Source of the DNA: Candidatus Scalindua sp.
Lineage (GTDB): Bacteria; Planctomycetota; Brocadiia; Brocadiales; Scalinduaceae
Length of the DNA: 64,000 nucleotides
Direction: 5' to 3'
Assembly: GCA_018670825.1 (NCBI GenBank)
Contig: JABHIW010000114.1
Coordinates: 1 to 64,000, forward strand
The notes below the pieces were generated by a model. The model saw only the letters and a program-made list of their open reading frames with translations. It searched no databases and was not told where the DNA came from. This document shows, piece by piece, positions 2,525 to 61,114 of this stretch. Each line of letters starts with the position of its first letter. Position 1 is the stretch's first letter. A program made the position numbers and the translations under genes.

Positions 2525-3175
2525 TCAGGGAGACGGATACTGGATATTGTTGTAATGGCCAATGAGCTTACCCGAATGAGCATCTATATAGTACCACCAT
2601 TGTCCGGGCTCTGTACCTTCATAGGAGATCACATAGTGATACGCCAAATGCTGACCAAAAATCACCAGAGACGGTTTCTTGCTCACCTGTAAACCGGCCT
2701 TGTCTTTATGCTCTTTGATGGCAATCTGCAGTGCTGCATCGGCATCAATATCAGGGTTTACCGAGATCTTAAAGTCTGGAAGATATTTACCGTTAACCCG
2801 ATAAATGACATTCCGGTTGTTGATATGGACAATACACTCTGCGCCAACCACACGTAATCCTTTGTAGCGCTGTTCCAGGCGAATGTGTTTAAAACCAATG
2901 TTATCACTTTCTAATTTCTTCAAAGTAAATTCTGTATCTTGTGACTGTATCCCGTTTGCCAGTTCCCCCGCATCTGCCTGCATCAGGTTGGATATTGTAC
3001 CGATCGCCATCTCAACATCGTCACCTTGTACGGTCAGATTGAGACTTTGTTCAAAAATGGTTCTCAATCCATCCAGCGGTAATGTCCCAGGATTATTAAC
3101 TTCAGCTTCATCTGCAAATACCACGCTATAAAATAGAATCATGAAAAGAGATAAGTAATGGATAAAATAGTTCAT
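2525..3175 (-). CDS. stand-alone exported propeptide paralogue of the M4 protease
   Basis: 216 residues: a signal peptide (hydrophobic stretch ending near VVFADE) and then only the FTP/PepSY propeptide of an M4 protease. It aligns nearly residue for residue with the N-terminus of the downstream protease, sharing LEQRYKGL, VGAE, IVHINN, QWWYYIDAHSGKLI and HYNNIQ, and it stops at YPSP exactly where the protease runs on into its catalytic domain. It is either the remnant of a tandem duplication or a functional free propeptide. M4 propeptides are known intramolecular chaperones and inhibitors, so a trans-acting inhibitor is possible (inference). The open frame, intact signal peptide and conserved residues argue against simple decay. 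Both genes run the same way, about 90 bases apart. Confidence 0.85.
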   Translation of the reverse strand: MNYFIHYLSLFMILFYSVVFADEAEVNNPGTLPLDGLRTIFEQSLNLTVQGDDVEMAIGTISNLMQADAGELANGIQSQDTEFTLKKLESDNIGFKHIRLEQRYKGLRVVGAECIVHINNRNVIYRVNGKYLPDFKISVNPDIDADAALQIAIKEHKDKAGLQVSKKPSLVIFGQHLAYHYVISYEGTEPGQWWYYIDAHSGKLIGHYNNIQYPSP

Positions 3176-4408
3176 GAGAACATTCCTTATATAAACTGTA
3201 ACTTTTTAGGTACTAAATTATTTCTAAGGCTTGCTTAGAAATAATACTGATGATAACGGATACAAACAGCCTTCTCTGTGAATCTTATTTGTGAGTTAAG
3301 TACTTCAATGTTTCCATTCCTGAATCCATGCTTGAAAAATGTGCAAACGTTCTTCATCGGAACTGATAAAGAACAAATGTGAAAAGAAAGATGATTAATG
3401 AAATGTATCTGTACCTCTTTCCTTTCACCTTATATTAATAATGACAGCTTCAATAAAACGTATAACTAATTTAAAACTGCATATATCGTGGCTGAAAGAA
3501 GCCCTGCTTCTGCTTTAAAAGACAGAAGTAGAAAGATATTGAAAAAATCCAAGTATCCCTTTTTACAATAATTCTGAAGAACATTATTTTGTACTAAAGA
3601 CCATAAGTTAACCTTGCTAAAACATAGCAGGCTTCAAAACTTAAGATTCTCTTATTGGTAACAGATTTCTTCATTCTAATACATTATAAAATACGTTGTC
3701 AATTGTAATCAGGCCATTTGAGCAAGTATTATCAGGCCAATCTGATTAGGAAAACTGCATTATCTTTGTTATATGACAACACTTAAGTAAGTGCTTTAGA
3801 CAAGCAAATTAAGTACCAAGGTGAAAGTGGGATATATTGCCTTATTTCTACTTTGATTGTTATGTATTTAAGTTGTTGTAATGGTTGTGCTTGTGTTGGC
3901 GTATATTTTTTTATTATTGTTGTTTTTCTGATATATATGCAGGAGGGAAACTGGGTAAAAGTGTGCCATATTACCTTATTGTGCCTTCACCGTTCTGTGC
4001 CATGACACACTTTTTTTGTTTTCCAAGTAGGTAAACAGAGAACGTCACTGAATGATTACACAAACATTAGAGACAACTCCGTGAAGCAAGGATATCACGA
4101 TTTGAGAATTGCTAAATGTGGTAATAAAGTTCATTTTAATTACACCCATGCAAAATAAGCTTTGTTAATTATGATTCAACTACATCATGATTTGTGGTTT
4201 CGTTTTAGGTGCTGTTAAATATGAAGATATAAGCACTCGTACAGCCACACTAAAGTTTTGCTCTAATCAACAGAAAGTTACACAAATCACTCAATTAGGG
4301 TATTATTCTGATCTTATTTCATATGACTAAAATAATACCCTGAATTCAAGTAATAATTGCAAATTTCGAGAGTTGACAAAGTGGGTTAGCTGTAAATGAC
4401 AACTCTAT
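3176..4408. other. gene-free stretch of 1.2 kb
   Basis: AT-rich with no credible reading frame. Two imperfect copies of an AAGTG-(n)-ATATT-CCTTATT phrase occur near 3824 and 3958. The second begins an imperfect hairpin (about 3957-4018) whose 3' arm runs into a T7 tract, a possible terminator or small RNA end. A clear inverted repeat lies at 4297-4341 and is listed separately. I see no tRNA or rRNA. Confidence 0.6.
4297..4341 (-). terminator. hairpin downstream of acr3
   Basis: AGGGTATTATT (4297-4307) and AATAATACCCT (4331-4341) form an 11-bp perfect stem with a 23-base loop, about 70 bases past the acr3 stop. It is AT-rich without a long T tract, so a terminator role is likely but not certain. 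Confidence 0.5.
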
Positions 4409-49426: not shown

Positions 49427-51199
49427 ATGTCTGATTTACAAAGAACACATACATGCGGGCAACTTCGCAAGGCGGATGCCGGGAGTGATATTACACTTTC
49501 TGGTTGGGTAGACACCAGAAGAGATCATGGTGGTGTTATTTTTATTGATTTAAGAGACAGATACGGTAAGACACAGATCGTATTTAATCCGGAACATAAC
49601 GCTGATACTCACGAAGCCGCGTCAGTGCTCAGGTCGGAATTTGTTATATCAGTGAGGGGTAAGGTTGAGGAGAGGCCGGATGGTATGGCGAACCCGGATT
49701 TAGATACGGGTGATATAGATGTGATGGTTGATACTCTTGACATATTAAATACATCTGAGACAACACCATTTGAGATTACCGGTGATACAGAAGTCTCAAC
49801 TGAATTAAGGCTCAAGTATAGATACCTCGATCTCAGACGGCCGCAAATGCAGAAGTATTTAACCTCAAGGCACAAAGTGTATCAGATTACCAGACGGTAT
49901 TTTGATAGTAATAATTTCATTGAAATAGAAACGCCGTTTTTGACCAAGAGCACACCGGAAGGTGCTAGAGACTACCTTGTACCAAGCAGGATAAACAGAG
50001 GTCAGTTTTATGCATTACCGCAATCTCCGCAGCTCTTTAAACAGATCTTAATGGTTTCCGGCTTCGATAGATACTTTCAGATAGTCAAATGTTTCAGGGA
50101 TGAAGACCTGCGCGCGCAGCGCCAGCCTGAATTTACACAAGTTGATTTGGAAATGTCGTTTGTACGTGAAGATGACGTTATCAATATGATAGAGGGTTTG
50201 ATGGTAGAGATTTTTAAAGAGGTGCTTGGTAAAGAGGTCTCCACTCCTTTTCCTCGGCTTCCATACAAGGATGCTATGAATCTATACGGGTGTGATGCGC
50301 CTGACCTGAGATTTGATATGACGATAAAGGAGATCACAGACTTAGCGGAGAAATCTGATTTTAAGGTGTTTAAAAGTGTAGCGGAGGCAGGAAATCAAAT
50401 AAGGGGTATCAATGCTACCGGGTGTGGAACTCTGTCCAGGAAGGATATAGACGGGCTTACAACATTTGTAAATCAGTTTGGGGCTAAGGGCCTTGCATGG
50501 TTTAAGGTTGATGAAAACGGGCTCACTTCTCAGATTGCAAAGTTCTTTAGTGACGATCTGCAGAAGGAGATAATCGAACGCTTCAATGCTGTTCCCGGTG
50601 ACTTGCTCCTGTTTGTTGCTGACAAGGAGAGTGTGGCATCACAGGCACTTTCCCAACTCAGGCTTAATATTGCAAAGAGTAACGGCATGATCAAGGAGGA
50701 CGAATTTAATTTGTCCTGGGTTGTTGATTTTCCGTTATTTGAATATAACGAAGAAATGGATAGAAACGATTCACTGCATCACCCTTTTACATCACCGCAC
50801 CCTGACGACCTTGATCATCTTGAAGAACGTCCGCTCGATGTCAGGGCAAGGGCTTATGATCTTGTACTGAATGGTGTTGAGCTGGGAGGTGGTAGTATCA
50901 GAATACACAAGCAGGATATACAGAAAAAGATTTTCAACCTGCTCAATATAGATGAGACAACTGCACAGGAAAGATTTGGATTTCTGCTCGAAGCTCTCAA
51001 ATATGGTGCGCCGCCGCATGGTGGTCTTGCGTTGGGACTTGACCGAATGGTTACGTTACTCTTAGGACTTGACGATATAAGAGAAGTAATCGCATTCCCG
51101 AAAACCCAGAAGGCAACATGCCTCATGGTGGATGCTCCTTCAGATGTCGACGATAAACAGCTCAAAGATCTCGGTCTTTCACTTCTGAAACCGGATTAA
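49427..51199 (+). CDS. aspS: aspartyl-tRNA synthetase
   Basis: 590 residues, the long bacterial form. OB-fold anticodon domain (LSGWVDTRRDHGGVIFIDLRDR), motif 2 FRDEDLRAQRQPEFTQVDLEMSF, a GAD insert domain, and motif 3 GLALGLDRMVTLL. It starts on the base after the hisS stop, an arrangement seen in several phyla. No tRNA-specificity feature stands out; whether it also charges tRNA-Asn cannot be told here. Confidence 0.95.
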   Translation: MSDLQRTHTCGQLRKADAGSDITLSGWVDTRRDHGGVIFIDLRDRYGKTQIVFNPEHNADTHEAASVLRSEFVISVRGKVEERPDGMANPDLDTGDIDVMVDTLDILNTSETTPFEITGDTEVSTELRLKYRYLDLRRPQMQKYLTSRHKVYQITRRYFDSNNFIEIETPFLTKSTPEGARDYLVPSRINRGQFYALPQSPQLFKQILMVSGFDRYFQIVKCFRDEDLRAQRQPEFTQVDLEMSFVREDDVINMIEGLMVEIFKEVLGKEVSTPFPRLPYKDAMNLYGCDAPDLRFDMTIKEITDLAEKSDFKVFKSVAEAGNQIRGINATGCGTLSRKDIDGLTTFVNQFGAKGLAWFKVDENGLTSQIAKFFSDDLQKEIIERFNAVPGDLLLFVADKESVASQALSQLRLNIAKSNGMIKEDEFNLSWVVDFPLFEYNEEMDRNDSLHHPFTSPHPDDLDHLEERPLDVRARAYDLVLNGVELGGGSIRIHKQDIQKKIFNLLNIDETTAQERFGFLLEALKYGAPPHGGLALGLDRMVTLLLGLDDIREVIAFPKTQKATCLMVDAPSDVDDKQLKDLGLSLLKPD

Positions 51200-51269
51200 A
51201 TTGTCCATTATAATTAAAATATAGTATGGACGTCATTTTAGTCTGCTTTGCAAACTGTCATAAGCCAAT

Positions 51270-51289
51270 CGGCCCGCCTTGGCGGGCCG
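51270..51289. terminator. GC-rich hairpin after aspS
   Basis: CGGCCCGCC-TT-GGCGGGCCG, 9-bp stem, about 70 bases past the aspS stop. No T tract, so either a dispersed palindrome or a Rho-independent-like end. Confidence 0.55.
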
Positions 51290-51409
51290 TCATTAACCGC
51301 TCACAAAAATCTTCTAAACATTCACTATAAATAATTCGTAATCCAGTAACTTATATTATTACAATTTCTGATCAATTTTTTATGGTATTAAGATAGGGGG
51401 GCGATTTTA

Positions 51410-51766
51410 ATGAAATTGGAAGAGCTTAAAGTTTATCAGTTGGCAATGGATGTTGGCGAGAGAGTTTGGGTAGTTGTATGTAAGTGGGATTATTTTGCCA
51501 AAGATACGGTAGGCAAACAGTTAGTTAAATCCGTTGATTCAATAGCAGCGAACATAAGCGAAGGTTATGGCCGTTTTCATTATAAAGAAAACAAACAGTT
51601 TTGCTATTACAGCCGAGGCTCGCTTTACGAGACAAAGACGTGGCTCAAAAAAGCACACGGCCGTCGTTTGATTATTGACAACGATTTTCAATCGTTAGAA
51701 AAAGATATTGAAACAATTGCTTATAAGTTAAACAATTACATTAAATCCATAGGTACAACAAAATAG
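51410..51766 (+). CDS. four-helix-bundle (IVS-type) protein, second copy
   Basis: 118 residues of the same S23/four-helix-bundle family as 12578-12928, but a different subgroup: LEELKVYQLAMDVGERVWVV, LVKSVDSIAANISEGYGR, FCYYSRGSLYETKTWL. AGGGGGGCG precedes the start. AATTCGTAAT, a word of the dispersed repeats, lies about 75 bases upstream. Function unknown. Confidence 0.85.
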   Translation: MKLEELKVYQLAMDVGERVWVVVCKWDYFAKDTVGKQLVKSVDSIAANISEGYGRFHYKENKQFCYYSRGSLYETKTWLKKAHGRRLIIDNDFQSLEKDIETIAYKLNNYIKSIGTTK

Positions 51767-51810
51767 TAATCTCAATGATGGTGAACCTACTGACAGCGAA
51801 GCTCATGACC

Positions 51811-51825
51811 ACTGGCGGCGCCAGT
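51811..51825. repeat. small palindrome before recG
   Basis: ACTGGC-GGC-GCCAGT, ending 25 bases before the recG start. Could be the end of the four-helix-bundle transcript or an operator. Confidence 0.4.
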
Positions 51826-51850
51826 AAATGACTTAATCCATTTAAAACAA

Positions 51851-53929
51851 ATGTCTACATCCGATTTAGACAAATCCATTCAATACATCAAAGGTGTTGG
51901 CCCAAAAAGAGCCCTGTCTCTTGGAAGATTGGGAATTCACACGGTAAAAGATCTTCTCTATTGCTTTCCACGCACATACCAGGACAGGTCCAAGGTAGAG
52001 AAAATATCCAATTTGACGGATGGTGCTACTGCAATGGTGAAGGGTATTGTTATCAATATTAAGTCATTCAGGACCAGAGGGTGGAAGAGCATTTTTGAGG
52101 CGTCAATTGGTGACGGGACCAGTATGCTTCAGGTCAAATGGTTCAACCGACCCTATCAGAGTGAAATATTCCAGGTGGATGACCATGTGTTTCTCTATGG
52201 CAAGGTCTCTTTATATAAGCAGTCACTTCAGATGGTAAATCCTGAGTATGAGATAGCGTCAGAGGAAGATGCTCCAGGTAAGAGCGTGGGTATATTGCCA
52301 ATATATTCACTGACAGAGGAGATGAGACAAGTCAGTTTCCGTAAACTGGTGAAAATGGTTGTTGATGAACATTACCACAAAGTTGAAGAGATATTTACGG
52401 ATGATATTATCAGTAAACATAAGTTTGTACCAATTACCTCTGCAATAAAAAATATTCACTTTCCCGATTCCATGGACAGTCTGAAAGATTCTAAGAGACG
52501 GCTCAAGTATGAGGAATTCTTCCTGTTTGAAACAGCAATGGCACTTCGCAAACGCGGTATAAAAGAAGTGAGTGGGTACAAATTTTGTATTGGAAAAAAC
52601 GTAGAGACTCATATCTACAAGCTCTTTCCATTCGTGCTTACCAAAAGCCAGCAGAAAGTAATCAGTGAAATCCACGAAGACATGTGCAGTGAGAGACCAA
52701 TGAACCGATTGTTGCAGGGGGACGTTGGATCCGGCAAGACAGCAGTTGCCGTTTACGCATTGCTTGCTGCCGTTGCAAACGGTTTTCAAACTGCATTTAT
52801 GGCGCCGACAGAGATCCTTGCCGAACAACACTATCGTACACTCACCCTCATGCTGGAAAAGGCAGAGGTGAAAATACTGCTCCTCACTGGTGGAGCTAAG
52901 ACGAAGATAAAGAAAGAAAATATTGAACGGATAAAACAGGGAGATATTGACCTTGTGATTGGTACACACGCATTGATCGATAAAGGTGTGGAATTTAAGA
53001 AGCTGGGATTGATCGTAATTGACGAACAGCACAAGTTTGGTGTGATGCAGCGTACACGCCTGAGACAAAAGGGACACAAACAGATGCCAGATGTACTCGT
53101 CATGACGGCAACCCCCATCCCCAGGAGTCTCTCTTTGACCGTGTTTGGTGATCTTGATATCTCAACTATTGATGAACTTCCACCCGGTCGTACACCGGTG
53201 GAGACATATCGTGTGCCAGTAAAGAAAGAGAATGATGCTTACGGGTTTATTCGTAAAGAAGTGGAGAAAGGGAGACAGGCATTTGTCGTATACCCGCTGG
53301 TGGATGAATCTGAGAAACTCGACCTCAAGTCTGCAACTGTTGAAGCGGAGAGGCTCAGGGATGAAGTATTCTCCGGATTAAACGTCGGACTGCTACACGG
53401 CCAGTTAAAGCCTGAGTTGAAGGAGTTGATAATGTCTGATTTTGTTAATCACAAGTACGACATCCTCGTATCAACTATTGTAATTGAGGTGGGGATTGAT
53501 GTGCCGAATGCCACCGTAATGGCGATTGAACACGCGGAACGGTTTGGCCTCGCTCAGCTTCACCAGCTCAGGGGTAGGATAGGGCGCAGTTCACACCAAT
53601 CCTATTGTCTCCTTTTTGGTATACAAAAGAGTGCCGAATCCCGTCAAAGGATCAAAACAATGCTGGAAACAAATGATGGTTTCAAGATTGCGGAAGAAGA
53701 TCTAAAGATCAGAGGCCCAGGTGAATTCTTTGGCACAAGACAGCATGGTCTGCCTGAGTTCAAGATAGGTGACATCATAAATGATTTCGACATAATAAAA
53801 CTGGCTCGTGCAGATGCTTTTGATCTGGTGAAAGAGGGCCATAAATCAAAGGACTCAAAGGAACAGATGCTGCTTAAGAGGATAATGGAAAGTTTTAAGG
53901 ATAAACTTGATTTGATAAATACGGGGTGA
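51851..53929 (+). CDS. recG: ATP-dependent DNA helicase RecG
   Basis: 692 residues, full length. Wedge/OB domain (YCFPRTYQDRS), Walker A QGDVGSGKTAVA, DEQH box VIDEQHKFGVMQR, TATPIPRSL, motif V STIVIEVGIDVPNA and motif VI QLRGRIGRS. It remodels stalled replication forks and Holliday junctions. The ATG follows a short unit boundary; no clear Shine-Dalgarno. Convergent with the SIR2-like gene. Confidence 0.95.
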   Translation: MSTSDLDKSIQYIKGVGPKRALSLGRLGIHTVKDLLYCFPRTYQDRSKVEKISNLTDGATAMVKGIVINIKSFRTRGWKSIFEASIGDGTSMLQVKWFNRPYQSEIFQVDDHVFLYGKVSLYKQSLQMVNPEYEIASEEDAPGKSVGILPIYSLTEEMRQVSFRKLVKMVVDEHYHKVEEIFTDDIISKHKFVPITSAIKNIHFPDSMDSLKDSKRRLKYEEFFLFETAMALRKRGIKEVSGYKFCIGKNVETHIYKLFPFVLTKSQQKVISEIHEDMCSERPMNRLLQGDVGSGKTAVAVYALLAAVANGFQTAFMAPTEILAEQHYRTLTLMLEKAEVKILLLTGGAKTKIKKENIERIKQGDIDLVIGTHALIDKGVEFKKLGLIVIDEQHKFGVMQRTRLRQKGHKQMPDVLVMTATPIPRSLSLTVFGDLDISTIDELPPGRTPVETYRVPVKKENDAYGFIRKEVEKGRQAFVVYPLVDESEKLDLKSATVEAERLRDEVFSGLNVGLLHGQLKPELKELIMSDFVNHKYDILVSTIVIEVGIDVPNATVMAIEHAERFGLAQLHQLRGRIGRSSHQSYCLLFGIQKSAESRQRIKTMLETNDGFKIAEEDLKIRGPGEFFGTRQHGLPEFKIGDIINDFDIIKLARADAFDLVKEGHKSKDSKEQMLLKRIMESFKDKLDLINTG

Positions 53930-54020
53930 TACGTTAACTAAATTACAAAAAGTAATGATGAAAGACCTGGTCCTGAGCATCTTTAAAGTTAAGAAAGAAA
54001 AGGGAGGCCATTACGGCCCA

Positions 54021-55178
54021 TTAGCCTTGCAGTATCTTGCCGAGAATTACAGGGATGTCAGGAAATTTATTAAACCAAATTGGCGTGATTCCCAATTGTT
54101 CCAGAACATTTTGTTGCTGTTTCTGATTAAGTTTCTTTACTTGCCCAATTATTCCTGAGATTTCTCTTTGATATCTTGGCCCTTTTCTTCCGGGCATAGC
54201 TGGCCGAGCCGACTTAATACCCGATCGGCTGAAAAGAACACCACTTGATTCATTCTGTTCACTCTTTATTCCACTTTTTTTAAACTTATCAAGATAGCTA
54301 ATTGCTTTTGCATGAATTTCATCTAAAACTCTATCTTCCGGAGGATCTTCATCGGGGACTTGTAGTAGTGCATAACTGATGGAGTTAACCGGTGCATTTC
54401 TGACAGCATCAAGCAAGCGTCTCATGTTTCTATCTGAGAGAGATAAGCCTATCATCAGGCCTACAGAGTTAGTCATTGATTGAAGCTGAACAAGGTTAGA
54501 CCAGTTGTAAGGGTCTCTTGCAACTAGGTGATATTGATCCTCTGTAAAAACAATATCATCAAAAGTTGATCCAGGAGTGTTTTTATCAAATGGAACATAT
54601 CCATGAACATGATAGACTGGGAGCTTATCGTTTTCTAATGAAGTTGCGGAGTAAACAGTTTGATATGGATGTTTGCCTAATGAAATTTCAAGCAAATTAT
54701 CATAGTTATAGGTAATTACTGAGCGAATTCCTCCTCTCTTTGATTCGCACAGTTTCGCAACAGCATCCAGAGTCCTATTCTTACTTCTGAGAAATCTTTT
54801 GTTTATATCCTGGTGTGGTTCGCCATATCCATCTAACATACTCCCATATAGTATCCGATATAAATCTTCCATAAAAATACCACCTTCATGGCCGTTTTCT
54901 GTATCATAATATGTGTGTAGTTTTCTGGCTGTTATCTCAAGTGGTTCTGTACTATTAGCTAAATGCCATTCAGCAATCGCAAAAAGATAATTTGAGAAGG
55001 GACGCCACCCTTCCATTTCTTGCTCACTTATTTTAGCGAAATAGAGAGCTAAGACCAGCTTCTCCCATGAAGGCAGGCTGTTGGCAATTGAGACACCTGC
55101 TCCAAGATATAATGAGAGATTCTTCTTTTTAAAGCTTTTGCGTAGATCTCGTATTGATTTGTTTGTTGTATTTGACAT
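54021..55178 (-). CDS. SIR2-like NAD-binding protein (probable defence effector)
   Basis: 385 residues. A SIR2/TIR-like Rossmann module (about 20-265): SLYLGAGVSIANSLPSW (Gly26-Gly28), ITYNYDNLLE with Asn158 and Asp160, the YHVHG motif with His190 and His192, and MIGLSLSDRNMRRLLD. These match the catalytic Asn and His of anti-phage SIR2 NADases (ThsA, DSR, SIR2-pAgo partners). The C-terminal 120 residues are basic and unfamiliar. It lies 72 bases downstream of a SLATT membrane gene, same strand. It likely depletes NAD on infection; biological role inferred. Confidence 0.85.
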   Translation of the reverse strand: MSNTTNKSIRDLRKSFKKKNLSLYLGAGVSIANSLPSWEKLVLALYFAKISEQEMEGWRPFSNYLFAIAEWHLANSTEPLEITARKLHTYYDTENGHEGGIFMEDLYRILYGSMLDGYGEPHQDINKRFLRSKNRTLDAVAKLCESKRGGIRSVITYNYDNLLEISLGKHPYQTVYSATSLENDKLPVYHVHGYVPFDKNTPGSTFDDIVFTEDQYHLVARDPYNWSNLVQLQSMTNSVGLMIGLSLSDRNMRRLLDAVRNAPVNSISYALLQVPDEDPPEDRVLDEIHAKAISYLDKFKKSGIKSEQNESSGVLFSRSGIKSARPAMPGRKGPRYQREISGIIGQVKKLNQKQQQNVLEQLGITPIWFNKFPDIPVILGKILQG

Positions 55179-55249
55179 GTAATCTTCTAAAAATACAAAA
55201 TGAATAATTACGGATACAATATTCTCTTTTTCACTTTGCCTTGTGCATA

Positions 55250-56098
55250 CTAGACCATTTCTAATTCAATCCTTATAATGTTACCAAGAGGTATCGGAAC
55301 TGCATTTTCTGCCTGGACTACTTTATCCCCAACCTTGCCTTCAACTCGAATCGTATGTATTCCTGGAGTTAGATTACTGAGTGCAGCGGATTTTCCCGTA
55401 TAATGTTTACGGCTACCATCATTAATTGAAAGGTCCCATCCACTGTCGCACTTATCACCATTCTTGATGATAACATTAGCGCCTCCCAGCTTACTTACTT
55501 CTGCCTGCGCTTTTGCTGCATCATCGATTTGTTTCAATGCCGCCTGGAATTCTTGCTTCCATGCAATCATCTCATTTTCGAGAATCACATTTATCTGTGT
55601 CAAGAAGGTTTTACATCGCACCAACATATCTTGCACTTGTTCGTCAGATGGGCCAGCTCCTTTCAAGGTTGCTTTTTGAATTTCCCAGTCTATTTGGAAA
55701 GCTTGCAACGTTTTGCGTATTTGTACTTCTGTTGTCAGAAATCTTATCCATGCGCTGGAAAATCCAAAAAATTTATCGAAACCTACTAAAGCAACAGCAA
55801 CCACTAAGGCAACAGAAGCCCATGCTGGTGATACACTTATTTTTTGATTAGATATAAATATTTGAGACAAAAGAGGAATTAAACCAGCCACGGTAGTTGC
55901 TAAAATAGCCGCAAAGCGTAAAATTCGTGCCCAAATACGTTTTGAATTTTTTTTGCTAAGATACCAATTTATTGCTTGCTGCGCCTCGCTTGATACATAC
56001 TTAAAAACCTGTTCGAGTGAATTTATTCGTTCATCAGAGGTCCATGAGAAACCTTCCAGATTGACAAACTTTAAGTCATTACTTTTATTATTTGTCAT
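55250..56098 (-). CDS. SLATT (DUF4231-like) two-TM membrane protein with beta-sandwich tail
   Basis: 282 residues. Region 1-55 is helical with AQQAINWYLSKKNSKRIW, the amphipathic lead of SLATT/DUF4231 domains. Two membrane helices follow (about 58-82 and 92-110), then a coiled region to 205. The C-terminus (205-282) is an extracellular-type beta domain of PEGA/CarboxypepD_reg-like character (NLTPGIHTIRVEG). SLATT proteins are predicted pore-forming effectors linked to SLOG, SMODS and SIR2 sensors. Its SIR2-like neighbour fits that pattern. First gene of the pair. Confidence 0.82.
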   Translation of the reverse strand: MTNNKSNDLKFVNLEGFSWTSDERINSLEQVFKYVSSEAQQAINWYLSKKNSKRIWARILRFAAILATTVAGLIPLLSQIFISNQKISVSPAWASVALVVAVALVGFDKFFGFSSAWIRFLTTEVQIRKTLQAFQIDWEIQKATLKGAGPSDEQVQDMLVRCKTFLTQINVILENEMIAWKQEFQAALKQIDDAAKAQAEVSKLGGANVIIKNGDKCDSGWDLSINDGSRKHYTGKSAALSNLTPGIHTIRVEGKVGDKVVQAENAVPIPLGNIIRIELEMV

Positions 56099-56668
56099 TA
56101 GATGTGCCTTTCTTGCCTGATCTGCTTTAGCATTAAACAGTCACGGTCATTAGATATCATGTTTTTGGAATTACTTTGAGTTATCTTCAAAGAATATTGT
56201 GATTTGAAAAGAAACATTTTTGGTAAGAAAGTTCATGTATTTACATCCTTGCAATAATAAACTTAATCTCAGGTGGTTAAACCACGTACACTACGTGTTA
56301 TAGATTTTGTGATTACAGAACTGAATCTGTCGGGATAATAAAACGACACATCATCAAAGTCAAGAAAAAAGAGATCAAAAACTTACGATTCGAGATTTGC
56401 GAATTACAATCTTAGCCTGCCTTGGTGTGACTTGCTCTGCGGTCTAGGCTGGTATTTACGATTTGAAAAGCAGATACTAGTGTGCCATCCTAATTAGCCT
56501 CATAAAGTTAGCAATAACATTAACCTTCCTTCCCCTGACAATACAATTTATCAGTAGACACGGTAAATATGTTATATTACATTTATGCAAATGGCATGTA
56601 TTGACGATGAATGTATAAAATAAAAAAATATTATTAGGACGTATCGGAAAGAAGGTAAGGGAGTAGTT
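56099..56668. other. divergent promoter region between SLATT and GH42-like genes
   Basis: A palindrome GTGGTT-A-AACCAC (56273-56285) runs into ACGTACACTACGT. AAAACTTACGATTCGAGATT and GCGAATTACAATC at 56381-56412 are a fragment of the dispersed repeats. AAGGTAAGGGAG at 56651-56663 is a good ribosome-binding site. No gene. Confidence 0.5.
56273..56285. promoter_or_regulatory. palindrome upstream of the SLATT/SIR2 pair
   Basis: GTGGTT-A-AACCAC, a perfect 6-bp inverted repeat with one central base, 174 bases from the SLATT start and about 385 from the GH42-like gene. A candidate repressor site. Confidence 0.35.
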
Positions 56669-59600
56669 ATTATTAAGAACATAAGCGTTTACTGTTTATC
56701 ATTATTTATACTAATACTCTGTATAAATTCTATCTCTTTTGCATATACACTCATTGCAACAGAAACAGTTCGCGGGGAGTATCAAAATGGGATATTTATG
56801 AGAAGTGTGGGAGAATATGAATATTATTTTGAAGTAGACGAAGAGTCAGGGATCGTTAATCTAGTAAAAAAGACACTTCTAAAAAAGACACTTCTACAAG
56901 ACAATACATCGATAGAGTCAAAAGTTGAATATCTCATCGTTTCAGTTGAAGATAGCACATTACCCAGCAGTTTTCTGAGAAGTGAGGAAAAGCGAAACCA
57001 GAAAATTATTACCATTGTTGGAAAACCGGGAAAGTTTGAAACAGAAACAATAATACTGGGAGAGGATTTTTTTGAATATTGTAAGGCTTCTTCAGGACGG
57101 TTTTATCTGGCAGCCGGTACCGTTATAAAATCAATTTCATCTCATTTTAACCCCCAAAAAGATCTATTAGCAAATGAACTATATACTAAATCTACAGTTA
57201 CGGAGTGGCAGAGAAAACTATACAGGGATTGGAAGAGTTTGCCAGAGCCTCCGATCACTCCTTATCATGGTCCTTTTGGTGGAGATGCAAGGGCCTTTGT
57301 AGGTGATATAAACAGTTACAAGGGGAACGATCCAAAGATCAGGGAGAATGTCGAACGCTTCACGGACTATTCCTACACAGCCGCTAAAGGCCCCTATGAC
57401 CCAGAACTGGACAGGCGTCCGATTAACCATGAATTTGAGGAGGCAATGATTGAGGACTGGAGACGCATGGGATACAACTGTGCTTACAAGGGCAGCATTA
57501 ACACATTTCGTGTAGGCAAGTACCTGAAGGATAAATATGGTATGCTTGGTGCAATAGAGCAGACTCTCTGGGGCCAGGGGACTGGAGAGGAACCTCCTTT
57601 TGACTATACCGGTAAGAAGATTGGAAAAGGGGTGAGAGAAGGGTGTAATAGTTTTTTCGTTAAGAAATACTATGACCAGGGAGTTGCTGCGGTGTCGGGA
57701 CAGGTTATTAATTACCCCGACGCCCTCTTCCAGGTGGGTGATCATCGCCTGACGTGCTCGTGGGATGAGGTGGGTATGCGCACCCGTTCCTACATTGATT
57801 ATCATCCCCAGGCTGCTGTAGAATTTCGCAAATATCTGAAAGATGTCTGGTTTGGTGACTCCGCGCCAGACAAGGATACAAACAGTGACGGACGCACGTA
57901 CAACCAGTTTACCGGGGAGAATCTGACCAACTGGGACCAGGTACAAGCTCTTCAATTGTCACCTTACTATAGAGATGCGTGGGGAGGACGTGAAAAGCCG
58001 GAAATAGATAAGGTCATGTGGGAACAACCTGGCCGTTTTAAACTCTTGCTCGACTTTCAAGGTTACTGGACAATTGAGTATTTTCGCCGAATCAACGATG
58101 ATGCTACTAAAGTTATCAACGCAAAAGATATCAAAGGACGTGTGAGTTGTTATCCTTTCATGCAGCACTTTATCATATGGCCGAGCGCCAATGCAACGGC
58201 AGGCAATAGTTTCTATTGGTACTGCCGGCTGAGCCCGGTTGTGAATATTGAACATATGTGGCCTGACGCTCCGGCAATGAATCTCAGCTATGCAGTTACC
58301 GATCGTCTTGCTCCGCGTTTCAATACACCGGTGATGGGGTGGGTCTGGTTCTACTTTGGTAGAGAAGGTCGTGACATGTACAGAGGTCCGAACGATTGTG
58401 CTCGCGCTATGGCTCGCTTGATGGGGCATCGTGTCGACGGCACACATCACTGGTTGTATAGTCCCATATATCGCGGGGTTGATCGGAAACAACGCCTACA
58501 GATCGCTTACTGGCAGAACTTTCTTGCCATGCATTATAATGGCTATATTTCCGGTTCCGCTCCTCCTGAGACGCAAATTGCTATGTTAATGCCGAATTAT
58601 ACTGGCTATTTTTACCGCTATTTCCAGCATCCAAAAGCTGATTGGGCTTATACAGCCGAAGGTTTCCAGAATTCACAGTTAAGCTTCGAAATGGTGACAG
58701 AAGAAGAACTCGAACTGGACGAAGGTGTACTGGATCAATACAAGGTGTTATATGTTGTAGGAGGCGAGTGGACCACACCAACCATTAAGAAAAGGATTAA
58801 TACTTTTATAAAGAATAGTGGAATTGTCTTTGCCAATGTTGACAGCTTGAGCCTGGATATCGTCAGGAACGAAAGGACCGATTATCTTGAGAAGACATTC
58901 GGTGTGAAGATTACTCATAAATATAAGAATGGATTCTTTCCATCTGCTCAGACCATGGAAGAGTCTGCCTGGGCAAAAACTCTCGATACTTGGGGATTTC
59001 CTGCCAAGCTACAAGGGCATAGTGTCCAATGGAACAAGGAGGATGATCCACGATCTTTTGCAAAGATCTGGGCCAGGACTCCTTTAAGTGTAGTAAAGGA
59101 ACAGGATGGTAAGGTTAAAAGAGATGCACTTAGAAGGATGATTCGCAAACCCGAATGGAAAATCATTCGCGGTAAAGATGGCCATCCCATGGTAGATGAA
59201 AAGGAATTCAAGAAATATGATGAAGTTATGGGAAAGATGCCAAAAAAAGTTCGAGGAATTACACAGAGTCCGTTAGATATGCGCAAGGAACATATAATTA
59301 CTTTCAAGGACGGTAAAGCAGTACCAACATATGGTGAGATTGATACTGCCAGGGCTGTTAACAAGGGTAAGCCCATTGCCTGGTATGGTAAGGAGATCGT
59401 TGGGATTGAAACGAAAAACACTGTTTGGCTTGGATTACGACTGGGTAATGACCTGCATGCGATCTCTCCGCGCATGTCAATGCATCGATCATTAGAACCC
59501 GTCAACCCATTTGTGACAGATCCGCCTGACCTGTATCAGTCACACAAGCCCTACGCCGACATACTTGCATATGCCGCAGAGAAGGCCGGTGTTAAAAGAG

Positions 59601-60001
59601 TCGTTCAAATGACAAAAGGCGGTAGGAAGGTCTACAATCTAGAGGTCCTCCCGCGCATCAATACTGATGGTACTCTTATGGTTATTGTCATTAACCACGA
59701 TAAGACGGAGGCTAGATATGATGTCAAGGTTGATCAGGTCTATATAAAGAAGGGTATGGAGGCGTGGAGCATGTTAGATGAAAAGACCATTGAAAAGAGG
59801 ACTGACGGTAAGTTCAAGTTTAGTGTGCCGAGTTGGGGTGTTTCAGTTTTTATGCTTGGAACACCGAAAAACCTGGGACAAATCAAATCAGTCCAAGCCA
59901 GGCTTAACAAGAAGGACATGAGCGTACCTCGTTACTTCCTCGATCGCCCTGATCTCCTGAAACCTGAGTATAGTGTGCCAATTCCTAAGATTGGAGAGTG
60001 A
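56669..60001 (+). CDS. large exported GH42-like (beta-galactosidase trimerisation-domain) protein
   Basis: About 1110 residues if read from ATT 56669; the first canonical ATG is 56798 (1067 residues). The frame from 56675 carries a perfect signal peptide, NISVYCLSLFILILCINSIS, ending near FAYT, with AAGGTAAGGGAG just upstream of ATT. There is no ATG, GTG or TTG between the in-frame stop at 56621 and 56798. Domains: a unique N-terminal region, a TIM-barrel-like part (about 150-560) with WDEVGMRTRSYIDYHPQAAVEF, and a GH42 trimerisation-like domain (about 590-700; IAMLMPNYTGY, VLYVVGGEWTT). Glycosidase activity is inferred; catalytic Glu residues not assigned. Confidence 0.75.
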   Translation: MIKNISVYCLSLFILILCINSISFAYTLIATETVRGEYQNGIFMRSVGEYEYYFEVDEESGIVNLVKKTLLKKTLLQDNTSIESKVEYLIVSVEDSTLPSSFLRSEEKRNQKIITIVGKPGKFETETIILGEDFFEYCKASSGRFYLAAGTVIKSISSHFNPQKDLLANELYTKSTVTEWQRKLYRDWKSLPEPPITPYHGPFGGDARAFVGDINSYKGNDPKIRENVERFTDYSYTAAKGPYDPELDRRPINHEFEEAMIEDWRRMGYNCAYKGSINTFRVGKYLKDKYGMLGAIEQTLWGQGTGEEPPFDYTGKKIGKGVREGCNSFFVKKYYDQGVAAVSGQVINYPDALFQVGDHRLTCSWDEVGMRTRSYIDYHPQAAVEFRKYLKDVWFGDSAPDKDTNSDGRTYNQFTGENLTNWDQVQALQLSPYYRDAWGGREKPEIDKVMWEQPGRFKLLLDFQGYWTIEYFRRINDDATKVINAKDIKGRVSCYPFMQHFIIWPSANATAGNSFYWYCRLSPVVNIEHMWPDAPAMNLSYAVTDRLAPRFNTPVMGWVWFYFGREGRDMYRGPNDCARAMARLMGHRVDGTHHWLYSPIYRGVDRKQRLQIAYWQNFLAMHYNGYISGSAPPETQIAMLMPNYTGYFYRYFQHPKADWAYTAEGFQNSQLSFEMVTEEELELDEGVLDQYKVLYVVGGEWTTPTIKKRINTFIKNSGIVFANVDSLSLDIVRNERTDYLEKTFGVKITHKYKNGFFPSAQTMEESAWAKTLDTWGFPAKLQGHSVQWNKEDDPRSFAKIWARTPLSVVKEQDGKVKRDALRRMIRKPEWKIIRGKDGHPMVDEKEFKKYDEVMGKMPKKVRGITQSPLDMRKEHIITFKDGKAVPTYGEIDTARAVNKGKPIAWYGKEIVGIETKNTVWLGLRLGNDLHAISPRMSMHRSLEPVNPFVTDPPDLYQSHKPYADILAYAAEKAGVKRVVQMTKGGRKVYNLEVLPRINTDGTLMVIVINHDKTEARYDVKVDQVYIKKGMEAWSMLDEKTIEKRTDGKFKFSVPSWGVSVFMLGTPKNLGQIKSVQARLNKKDMSVPRYFLDRPDLLKPEYSVPIPKIGE

Positions 60002-60088
60002 AATGTGTCTGTTACTCAGTAAAAGAGTTTCTTTGGTCATATCTTGATTTCAAAATGCTTTATCTGTATCAATTTGAGTCCTGAGAAA

Positions 60089-60472
60089 TTAGACTTGAGC
60101 ATAAAACATCCTTGTTCTGGGCCCGTCAAACTCGCAGAAGAAGATTGATTGCCAGGTTCCTAATAAAAGCCGGCCGTCTTTGACGATAACACTTACAGAT
60201 GAACCGAACAGGGACGCTTTGATGTGGGCGTCACTGTTTCCTTCCATGTGAGAGTAGTTGTCACTCTGAGGGATCAACGACTCAAGTTTCTTCAGTATAT
60301 CCCGGGGGACATCCGGGTCTGCGTTCTCATTAATGGTAATTCCGGTTGTGGTGTGAGGGACGAATACCGTAACCACACCTTCAGAAACCTCTCCAACTAT
60401 TTCTTGAATCTGTGAAGTAATATCAATAAATTCGTTACGTCTTGATGTTTTAATAGAAAATTGTTTGATCAT
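60089..60472 (-). CDS. yjbQ: YjbQ/UPF0047-family protein
   Basis: 127 residues. Signature VPHTTTGITINENADPDV, YSHMEGNSDAHIKASLFG and LGTWQSIFFCEFDGPR are typical of YjbQ. The family was linked to a side activity of thiamine-phosphate synthesis; its true role is unclear. The conserved His and Glu residues suggest a metal site. Convergent with the GH42-like gene. No operon partner. Confidence 0.92.
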   Translation of the reverse strand: MIKQFSIKTSRRNEFIDITSQIQEIVGEVSEGVVTVFVPHTTTGITINENADPDVPRDILKKLESLIPQSDNYSHMEGNSDAHIKASLFGSSVSVIVKDGRLLLGTWQSIFFCEFDGPRTRMFYAQV

Positions 60473-60565
60473 ATTACATTAAAATATTGTTTTTTTGGAA
60501 TTTACGCTCTACCCGTCCGTACCGGCTGGCCGGGCTGGCCGGCTGCTAGCGAATGATACACTTAA

Positions 60566-61114
60566 TCAGTTTGTTTCTGTTTTTAGCATCTTCACTTTGC
60601 CGCTGAATGTTCCGCCCTTTTTCACGATTAATTTACGACAGCTTATTTCGCCGAATACTTCACCATTTTTAGAAATTTCAATTGTACCCATTACGTTGAC
60701 ATTACCGTTAATTTTACCTTCTATTATGGCATTGCCAACATGAATACTTGAAATTTCTATTACACCCTTCTTCTTTAAATGAAGTGTACCATAGGTCTCA
60801 AGATTTACGCCCAGAAGGGTTTTTACTTTATGATTGCTCAAGTCGTTACGGTTGTAACAGTGCTGACATGTAACTGCCTGTGATTTTTCATCGGTAAAAA
60901 TCTCTTTACTACATTTAAAGCAGTTAATTCTCCTTTTCCCGATAGGAGATATTAGCTTCTTTTCAGATGGGAAAATAATCTCTTTAACATTAATGTGTTT
61001 ATTGCAATGGAGGCACGGCATTGAGATACAATTGACCGATACTCTTAGACCGCCATTACAATAAGGACATGCTATGTTCCTGATGTCAGACAACTCGTTT
61101 GATTTAGTACTCAT
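60566..61114 (-). CDS. zinc-ribbon bactofilin
   Basis: 182 residues. Two N-terminal zinc ribbons, CPYC...CLHC (about 16-37) and CFKC...CQHC (about 65-86), precede a bactofilin beta-helix (about 115-178) with the typical VIEISSIHVGNAIIEGKINGN and GEVFGEISCRKLIVK. It overlaps functionally with a plain bactofilin encoded 36 bases upstream. Bactofilins polymerise without nucleotide into membrane-linked filaments. The zinc ribbons may bind nucleic acid or a partner. Confidence 0.85.
   Translation of the reverse strand: MSTKSNELSDIRNIACPYCNGGLRVSVNCISMPCLHCNKHINVKEIIFPSEKKLISPIGKRRINCFKCSKEIFTDEKSQAVTCQHCYNRNDLSNHKVKTLLGVNLETYGTLHLKKKGVIEISSIHVGNAIIEGKINGNVNVMGTIEISKNGEVFGEISCRKLIVKKGGTFSGKVKMLKTETN

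Follow-up and report, generated by a model that had tools for sequence, protein, structure and literature searches.

A stretch of 64,000 nucleotides from contig JABHIW010000114.1 of Candidatus Scalindua sp., here called the window, carries a gene for a SLATT_2 membrane protein and, downstream of it on the same minus strand, a gene for a SIR2_2 protein. The assembly comprises 4.45 Mb in 178 contigs. A preliminary description, made from the sequence alone, had placed the two genes correctly and proposed them as a probable undescribed two-gene defence system; the spacing is 71 bases and not 72 as given there. Comparison with loci of other genomes, labelled L (loci) and G (genomes) below, suggests that the pair probably came together locally and is not an established two-gene system.

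The SIR2 protein belongs to the SIR2_2 family (PF13289, E 2.4e-15 with Pfam). Its AlphaFold2 model, built from 47 sequences, has a mean predicted local distance difference test score (pLDDT) of 88.7 and contains one SIR2 domain, and structural alignments span residues 1–385. With VIA-align the model matched ThsA (Z 25.0), KomC (Z 24.6) and DSR2 (Z up to 23.2) over 249–269 residues, and at lower scores SPARSA (Z 20.1), Avs5 (17.6), human FAM118B (16.7) and SIR2-HerA (15.3). KomC, DSR2 and ThsA were also the best solved relatives by sequence with an 11-sequence profile (KomC 8zsf, E 1.5e-10). The preliminary description had named a SIR2-like nicotinamide adenine dinucleotide (NAD) module with conserved Asn158, Asp160 and His190/192, and its case hung on conservation of the catalytic Asn and His in homologs. 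All four residues are invariant in alignments of 11 and 47 sequences, window protein included. His192 was placed by its HG motif and by the profile because aligning the single sequence with DSR2 shifts this His by two residues. Mutation of the corresponding N112 or H152 in ThsA is reported to abolish NAD cleavage, with oligomer loss as a possible cause for H152 (PMC7272460), and mutation of N133 or H171 in DSR2 to lower it (PMC10981675). Judged by its sequence, the window protein is a predicted NADase.

The 120-residue basic C-terminus of the preliminary description turned out to be mostly SIR2 fold around a loop of ∼32 residues. Residues 266–385 contain 18 K+R against 13 D+E, and the basic portion is confined to residues 299–338 (10 K+R, 2 D+E). 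The mean pLDDT values across residues 301–330 are 65, 47, and 54, and C-terminal of the loop a strand (364–369) and a helix (374–383) form part of the SIR2 fold in the model. The loop has repeated G-I/V-K-S motifs, which are also seen in several relatives, and its length varies among relatives.

The upstream protein was assigned to SLATT_2 by both Pfam (PF18183, E 5.4e-27, 95.4 bits, cut-off 25) and NCBIfam (NF033633, 141 bits, cut-off 40). The SLATT domain and the two transmembrane (TM) stretches of the preliminary description were thus recovered, while the DUF4231 match that it also named remains under the Pfam cut-off (23.1 bits, cut-off 24.7). The two hydrophobic stretches lie at residues ∼55–84 and 85–118 (19-residue windows above 1.3). 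An AlphaFold2 model from 12 sequences (pLDDT 83.1, predicted template modelling score 0.57) has four long helices followed by a 7-strand β-sandwich tail, which is covered by few alignment rows. Helices 24–84 and 92–111 contain both TM stretches, and helices 113–144 and 152–201 lead to the tail. Four of the eight K+R within residues 1–56 lie immediately before the first TM stretch. Because there are two TM stretches and the K+R cluster before the first, hydropathy and charge predict that the tail is on the cytoplasmic side and not of extracellular type, as had been suggested.

Nor is the tail recognizably PEGA-like. Pfam analysis of three SLATT_2 tails gave neither PEGA nor any other significant family (no PEGA up to E 1, best match E 0.19). 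The best structural match is 6hif_Y, one of the small chains in the hydrazine dehydrogenase complex from Kuenenia (Foldseek E 5.3e-4; Z 9.9, root-mean-square deviation (rmsd) 1.7, 74 residues, 19% identity), followed by a DUF4876 protein (Z 9.4) and carboxypeptidases D and N (Z 9.0 and 8.5). We take the matched carboxypeptidase domains to be transthyretin-like. The tail is present in the window protein and in those of L102, L109, L111, L112 and L148, and absent from those of L009, L110, L124 and L125; the SLATT_2 proteins of L120–L122 have short, dissimilar C-termini only. As the tail is found in several SLATT_2 proteins, it is a recurrent trait of SLATT_2 and no peculiarity of the window gene, in contrast to its earlier designation as unusual.

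Purifying selection seems to act on the SLATT protein, its tail included. Comparison with the 71–72% identical gene of a sister genus (G355) gave a dN/dS ratio of nonsynonymous to synonymous substitution of ∼0.14 (dN 0.20, dS 1.45), and 0.11 for the tail alone (dN 0.22, dS 2.0), both rough figures since dS above 1 is saturated. Searching by sequence for relatives with a solved structure gave only weak matches, two designed proteins (E 0.24 and 0.32). A resemblance of the helices to F-BAR domains (Z up to 12.2) was discarded, as helical bundles below Z ∼13 may match by arrangement alone, and so were matches to STAT structures (rmsd above 30). SLATT has been predicted to be an effector and not a sensor (PMC12632851, PMC7159879, PMC9503650), and the window protein may act as a pore-forming effector.

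The positions of these and other features are given in Table 1. Promoter-like and terminator-like matches in the window are near chance level. No Rfam family was found in positions 50000–61000.

Table 1. Features of the SLATT_2 and SIR2_2 genes and their surroundings, with positions in the window
Feature	Position	Strand	Remarks
SLATT_2 membrane protein gene	55250..56098	-	282 amino acids (aa); Pfam/NCBIfam, hydropathy, AlphaFold2 model
β-sandwich tail of SLATT protein, residues ∼202–282	55253..55495	-	model strands 205–280
Minus-strand promoter-like site within SLATT gene	55603-55574	-	site prediction
Intergenic gap, 71 bases	55179..55249	-	no promoter-like or terminator-like site on the minus strand
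SIR2_2 protein gene, single SIR2 domain	54021..55178	-	385 aa; Pfam, AlphaFold2 model
Predicted catalytic Asn158 codon	54705..54707	-	invariant in 47 sequences; aligns with DSR2 Asn133
Predicted catalytic His192 codon, His of HG motif	54603..54605	-	invariant in 47 sequences; aligns with KomC His146 (profile alignment)
Disordered basic loop, residues ∼302–333, within SIR2 fold	54180..54275	-	model, composition, alignment
Terminator-like hairpin directly 3′ of SIR2 stop codon	54005..54019	-	2 such sites found against 2.0 expected, i.e., chance

Linkage of the two families was tested from both sides. On the SLATT side, 14 SLATT_2 loci from elsewhere were read (L102, L103, L104, L109–L112, L120–L125, and L148). 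The genes of L103 and L123 are broken and that of L125 scores under the family cut-off; 12 loci are intact, and the sub-threshold L098 was left out. No SIR2 gene was recognized beside these 12 intact loci by profile, motif search or Pfam. The whole-domain SIR2 profile was applied to 301 open reading frames (ORFs), window and controls included. The window gene came out at E 3e-123 and three of the control SIR2 genes at E ≤1e-112, and the next matches were another window ORF (E 0.008) and an ORF of L104 (E 0.037). A fourth control, the divergent SIR2_2 protein L040:3643–4692, scored only E 0.28. The profile can thus miss distant SIR2 genes, and motif search and Pfam scans were therefore added. 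The motif search, run on 198 ORFs from the 14 loci, matched a fragment in L103 only, and no SIR2_2 was found among the 16 neighbors scanned with Pfam, which are a subset of the locus ORFs.

SLATT genes are found in 3 of the 17 genomes of the family, one of them broken. The intact gene of G355 is tailed, 72% identical to the window gene, and adjoins an IS200-like transposase (Pfam); this genome (92% complete) gave no match to the window SIR2 protein at E 1e-5. In the sister genome G356 (L103) the same SLATT gene is reduced to two pieces, corresponding to residues 134–211 and 221–282. Past its stop codon the strand continues with an open frame (GTG after 1 base, first ATG after 28 bases) that contains the SIR2 motif FLGAGVS and ends at L103:9402; a piece of a group II intron (RF02005) lies at L103:9567–9836. 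A pattern containing FLGAGVS occurs in 53 of 79 SIR2 ORFs against 1 of 849 others, itself a SIR2_2 protein. With a profile of the SIR2 N-terminus the fragment ranks first at E 0.0014 (next 0.018) among 1,050 sequences, which include 200 shuffled versions of itself, whereas the whole-domain profile gave only E 0.1. It had no match in PADLOC and none in plasmids and phages. From its sequence the fragment is probably what remains of a different type of SIR2 gene that followed the same SLATT, which is a hint only.

Several SLATT_2 genes have other neighbors of conflict type. In L104:3625–8139 and L112:2765–7556 SLATT_2 stands beside metallophosphoesterase, NACHT, and FGE-sulfatase domains, encoded by two genes in L104 and by one fused gene in L112. 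In L110:3653–7083 a SLATT_2 gene without tail is preceded, on its own strand, by a DUF4062-NB-ARC-TPR gene, and in L122:5263–9948 SLATT_2 is found between a RhuM-family gene and a retron-like set of a PRTase-CE/wHTH gene and a reverse transcriptase. The tailed SLATT_2 genes of L102, L111 and L148 lie among ordinary-looking genes. L148 is also the one relative of SLATT_2 found in plasmids; none was found in viral contigs and phages. By eye, two near-identical copies of a CobB-like sirtuin, one of them shorter, are present at L104:1–677 and 3023–3532 (G153) around another gene and a few kilobases from SLATT_2.

From the SIR2 side, the flanks (≤6 kb per side) of 80 SIR2 loci, the best 80 of 150 relatives from a contig scan, were searched with a local SLATT_2 profile. 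No match was found up to E 10 with filters, and the best without filters had E 0.21. Five of the six SLATT sequences used as positive control were in the profile; the independent sixth, L148, scored E 2e-56. With Pfam, SLATT_2 was found in none of 49 genomes with SIR2 relatives, and control genomes were likewise without a match. SLATT_2 exceeds the cut-off in 2/337 (one being the own genome), 4/296, 4/259, and 1/257 genomes of four phylum samples. Because it is rare in all four, the 0/49 is weak evidence alone, and more weight goes to the flank test.

One of the 80 SIR2 loci, L054, has a SLATT_5 gene (E 8e-47) directly before its SIR2_2 gene, which the SLATT_2 profile missed. A 73-base site is present at L054:1873–7030 in four copies (63–100% alike) after four genes, and one copy lies between SLATT_5 and SIR2. 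The locus looks like an integron cassette array with SLATT_5 and SIR2_2 in adjacent cassettes. As attC-like repeats follow each of these two genes, the adjacency may be meaningless. The Pfam tally of neighbors covered 50 of 77 same-strand neighbors and L018:8456–8923, with 27 omitted by hand, including L054:4556–5239, and 25 of 62 families shown; ten more SIR2-locus neighbors were scanned with Pfam, four of them new. The negative result in the SIR2 flanks holds for SLATT_2 only, other SLATT families being incompletely covered. No annotated SLATT–SIR2 pair was found on seven plasmid loci besides L148 (including four of 30 records; L149 is unannotated). We also considered an excess of membrane genes beside SIR2. 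TM stretches were present in 6/16 downstream and 5/19 upstream neighbors of SIR2 relatives (80–350 aa, same strand) against 24% of 499 other ORFs, and the idea was rejected since the downstream excess is too small and the upstream share equals background.

A tree of the window SIR2 protein and 46 of the 80 relatives (34 were excluded by hand, including the split genes of L017 and L019 and near-copies) placed the window protein in a group of 12 with support 100/99. One member (L021) is partial, and there is a long-branch warning where L070 joins the group. The group spans Planctomycetota, Bacteroidota, Acidobacteriota, Verrucomicrobiota, Gemmatimonadota, and Thermodesulfobacteriota, and the closest kin of the window protein are two Bacteroidota proteins (support 99/94). 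At E 1e-10 a relative was found in 7 of 343 genomes of the phylum, own genome included, and within the family only in the own genome (1 of 17). That the clade covers several phyla and is scarce in its own phylum and family suggests that the SIR2 gene spread by horizontal transfer.

The neighbors of the clade members, read mostly by eye, include no common partner gene. An LCAT/PGAP1-like hydrolase was identified with Pfam near two members (L015:6001–10402, plus a CHAT domain, and L018:4417–7101), and those of L013 and L017 lie near nucleotidyltransferase/HEPN-like pairs (by eye). The other members have mostly ordinary-looking surroundings by the same inspection. Some distant relatives have N-terminal additions, namely TIR in L048:5536–6948, HARE-HTH (weakly) in L044, and unassigned ones in L026 and L037. 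Two plasmid SIR2 genes are located between or before TIR genes in a Thoeris-like manner (L166:3001–6599 and L167:3498–6033). In viral contigs no relative was confirmed with the single protein as query, and the 11-sequence alignment found 14 distant ones there, none with a significant SLATT_2 neighbor (best E 0.33). Two distant relatives (L154 and L157) are seen by eye amid tail- and lysis-type genes of apparent P2-like prophages. On another viral contig (L163:4758–7490) SIR2_2 and DUF4062 genes stand on either side of one for a 155-aa protein that matches no Pfam family.

The pair lies behind recG (assigned by eye), in a stretch (53929–60089) that is variable across the family. recG is present in 14 of the 17 genomes, 13 besides the own, and the stretch behind it was read in seven relatives (L141–L147). 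Other genes follow recG in all seven, none of them with SIR2 or SLATT in this place. Toxin-antitoxin-like small genes were seen by eye in L142, L144, L145 and L147; L142 and L145 also contain repeated partial copies of the recG 3′ end. A homolog of the window gene 60089–60472 lies further downstream in three of the seven (L143, L144 and L147), as in the window, and is not within the fetched stretch of the other four. Positions 56450–56627 of the window hold a remnant resembling, partly or wholly, the leader of a small two-gene cassette in L142, L145 and L147. A variable site as location accords with the patchy presence of the pair, and its adjacency could likewise be due to chance at such a site. 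Upstream of the SLATT gene, positions 56190–56375 hold a dispersed repeat with similar copies in many contigs of the own genome, genus, and family, and positions 56798–60001 encode a 1067-aa protein without a Pfam family at E 0.001.

No system in PADLOC matched both genes. The best score of the SIR2 protein was 45.2 bits to ThsA over a partial profile, and the SLATT protein had no match up to E 1. The preliminary description could not name a system for the combination, and neither could we. KomC of the Kongming system (KomABC) is likewise a SIR2-domain NADase without further domains, and its whole chain overlays the window SIR2 protein (9xvc, Z 24.6, rmsd 2.5, 249 residues, 23% identity over the structural alignment). 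KomA and KomB were not recognized beside the window gene, where the neighbors are SLATT, RecG, and the 1067-aa protein without Pfam match; this rests on inspection, as no model of KomA or KomB was used for searching. dITP (deoxyinosine triphosphate) is reported to trigger the KomB–KomC complex (PMC12774641).

ThsA of Thoeris shares with the window protein the SIR2 fold (8bto, Z 25.0, 269 residues) and the Asn/His pair, but is described as combining SIR2 and SLOG domains, and the window protein has no SLOG match in Pfam. Thoeris includes a TIR gene. No TIR gene was recognized in the window (ORF list, by eye), and the locus qualifies neither as TIR-SLATT nor as Thoeris. DSR2 shares the SIR2 domain (best Z 23.2), and Asn158 corresponds to its Asn133, but DSR2 chains have ∼1000 aa with a long C-terminal part against 385 aa for the window protein, and PADLOC Dsr1 scored 15 bits or less.

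SLATT genes beside TIR genes in firmicute phages are described as conserved neighborhoods (PMC9503650). There, as in the window, an NAD-processing enzyme adjoins SLATT, but the window has SIR2 instead of TIR and its pair was not found conserved. DRT10 is reported to consist of a UG17 reverse transcriptase, a non-coding RNA and a SLATT protein that is required for defence (PMC12632851). SLATT is needed there as partner of a second gene, whereas no reverse transcriptase was recognized in the window (by eye). SLATT is also reported in GAP1 systems (PMC7159879). The SLATT_2 genes beside NACHT or NB-ARC genes (L104, L110 and L112) belong to the same SLATT family, with the same kind of tail in L112, but their neighbors are STAND-type NTPases (nucleoside triphosphatases) and not SIR2. 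We found no description of a SIR2–SLATT pair among the literature matches listed; a 2015 paper on SLATT, outside that scope, might contain one. That paper is reportedly the first description of SLATT. The literature searched here likewise gave no description of the SIR2 clade of 12 or of the tailed SLATT_2 architecture.

Our tentative reading, to which we give somewhat less than an even chance, is a two-gene operon put together locally from two conflict modules of partner-swapping families. The shared strand and the 71-base gap without a terminator-like site are consistent with it, as are the SIR2 fold with its invariant residues, the selection on SLATT and the occurrence of SLATT_2 beside conflict-type genes in L104, L110, L112 and L122. 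The published SLATT–TIR neighborhoods and the need for SLATT in DRT10 also agree with it. The G356 fragment and the SLATT_5/SIR2_2 pair of L054 are weak hints of a functional link. In such an operon the two genes would be co-transcribed, and the SIR2 protein would cleave NAD when a trigger appears. SLATT, with helices and tail in the cytoplasm, would be a second effector in the membrane, whose opening may be tied to the SIR2 product or to the loss of NAD; this proposal is modelled on the prediction for SLATT beside TIR genes. The infected cell would then stop growing or die. Several results weigh against this reading: the negative linkage searches from both sides (12 SLATT_2 loci, 80 flanks, 49 genomes), the lack of a SIR2 match in G355 and of a common partner in the SIR2 clade, the poor whole-domain score of the G356 fragment and its failure in PADLOC, the cassette array of L054, promoter-like and terminator-like matches near chance, and the fact that no further defence gene was recognized in the window (ORF list, by eye). 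The searches do not support a conserved two-gene system: for SLATT_2, as far as tested, linkage is missing in relatives, an outcome that the preliminary description had named as grounds against its proposal. The L054 pair and the L103 fragment leave room for a functional pairing.

We hold a coupled pair and independent cargo to be about equally likely. In the latter case two accessory genes would share the variable site behind recG with adjacency as a by-product, the SIR2 protein being a stand-alone NADase and the SLATT protein acting alone or with another partner. The same linkage searches argue for this, as do the SLATT gene of G355, which is under selection without SIR2, and the seven relatives with other genes after recG. 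The histories of the two genes probably differ as well, since SIR2 is nearest to two Bacteroidota proteins and SLATT to a gene of the same bacterial family. Independent genes would account less well for the close spacing on one strand without a terminator-like site and for the SIR2-like fragment behind the broken SLATT gene of G356. A rather improbable alternative has SLATT as sensor or anchor that detects damage done to the cell envelope by a phage and frees or recruits the SIR2 NADase as sole killer. The predicted helical stalk and tail of SLATT could bind a partner, and the SIR2 protein has the NADase core without an added sensor domain, so that its trigger must come from elsewhere, as dITP does for KomB–KomC. 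Yet members of the SIR2 clade occur without adjacent SLATT_2, and the published prediction makes SLATT an effector. It is more improbable still that the genes serve no defence and form a membrane and NAD metabolism pair for upkeep of the cell envelope or internal membranes. The hydrazine dehydrogenase chain as best structural match of the tail and the ordinary-looking surroundings of three tailed SLATT_2 genes would fit such a role, but the patchy occurrence in the family (SIR2 in 1/17 and SLATT in 3/17 genomes, one broken) and the phage-defence proteins as top structural kin of SIR2 speak against it.

The operon reading can be extended, although we regard the extension as unlikely. SLATT_2 with its cytoplasmic β-sandwich tail would be an exchangeable membrane effector driven by differing enzymes or sensors, here by a KomC-like SIR2 NADase. 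The locus would then be the SIR2 counterpart of SLATT beside TIR, with the NAD cleavage product or the loss of NAD opening a SLATT channel, and sister loci would have swapped SIR2 types behind the same SLATT gene.

How SLATT is gated is left open in the DRT10 paper (PMC12632851). Should the SLATT and SIR2 proteins work as a unit, the NAD cleavage of SIR2 would be linked to a membrane effector, and the pair would offer a way to test SLATT gating. Even if they do not, the locus illustrates that a single instance of a pairing can be misleading: each family turns up in variable or conflict-type loci, and the exchange of partners becomes visible only by comparison.

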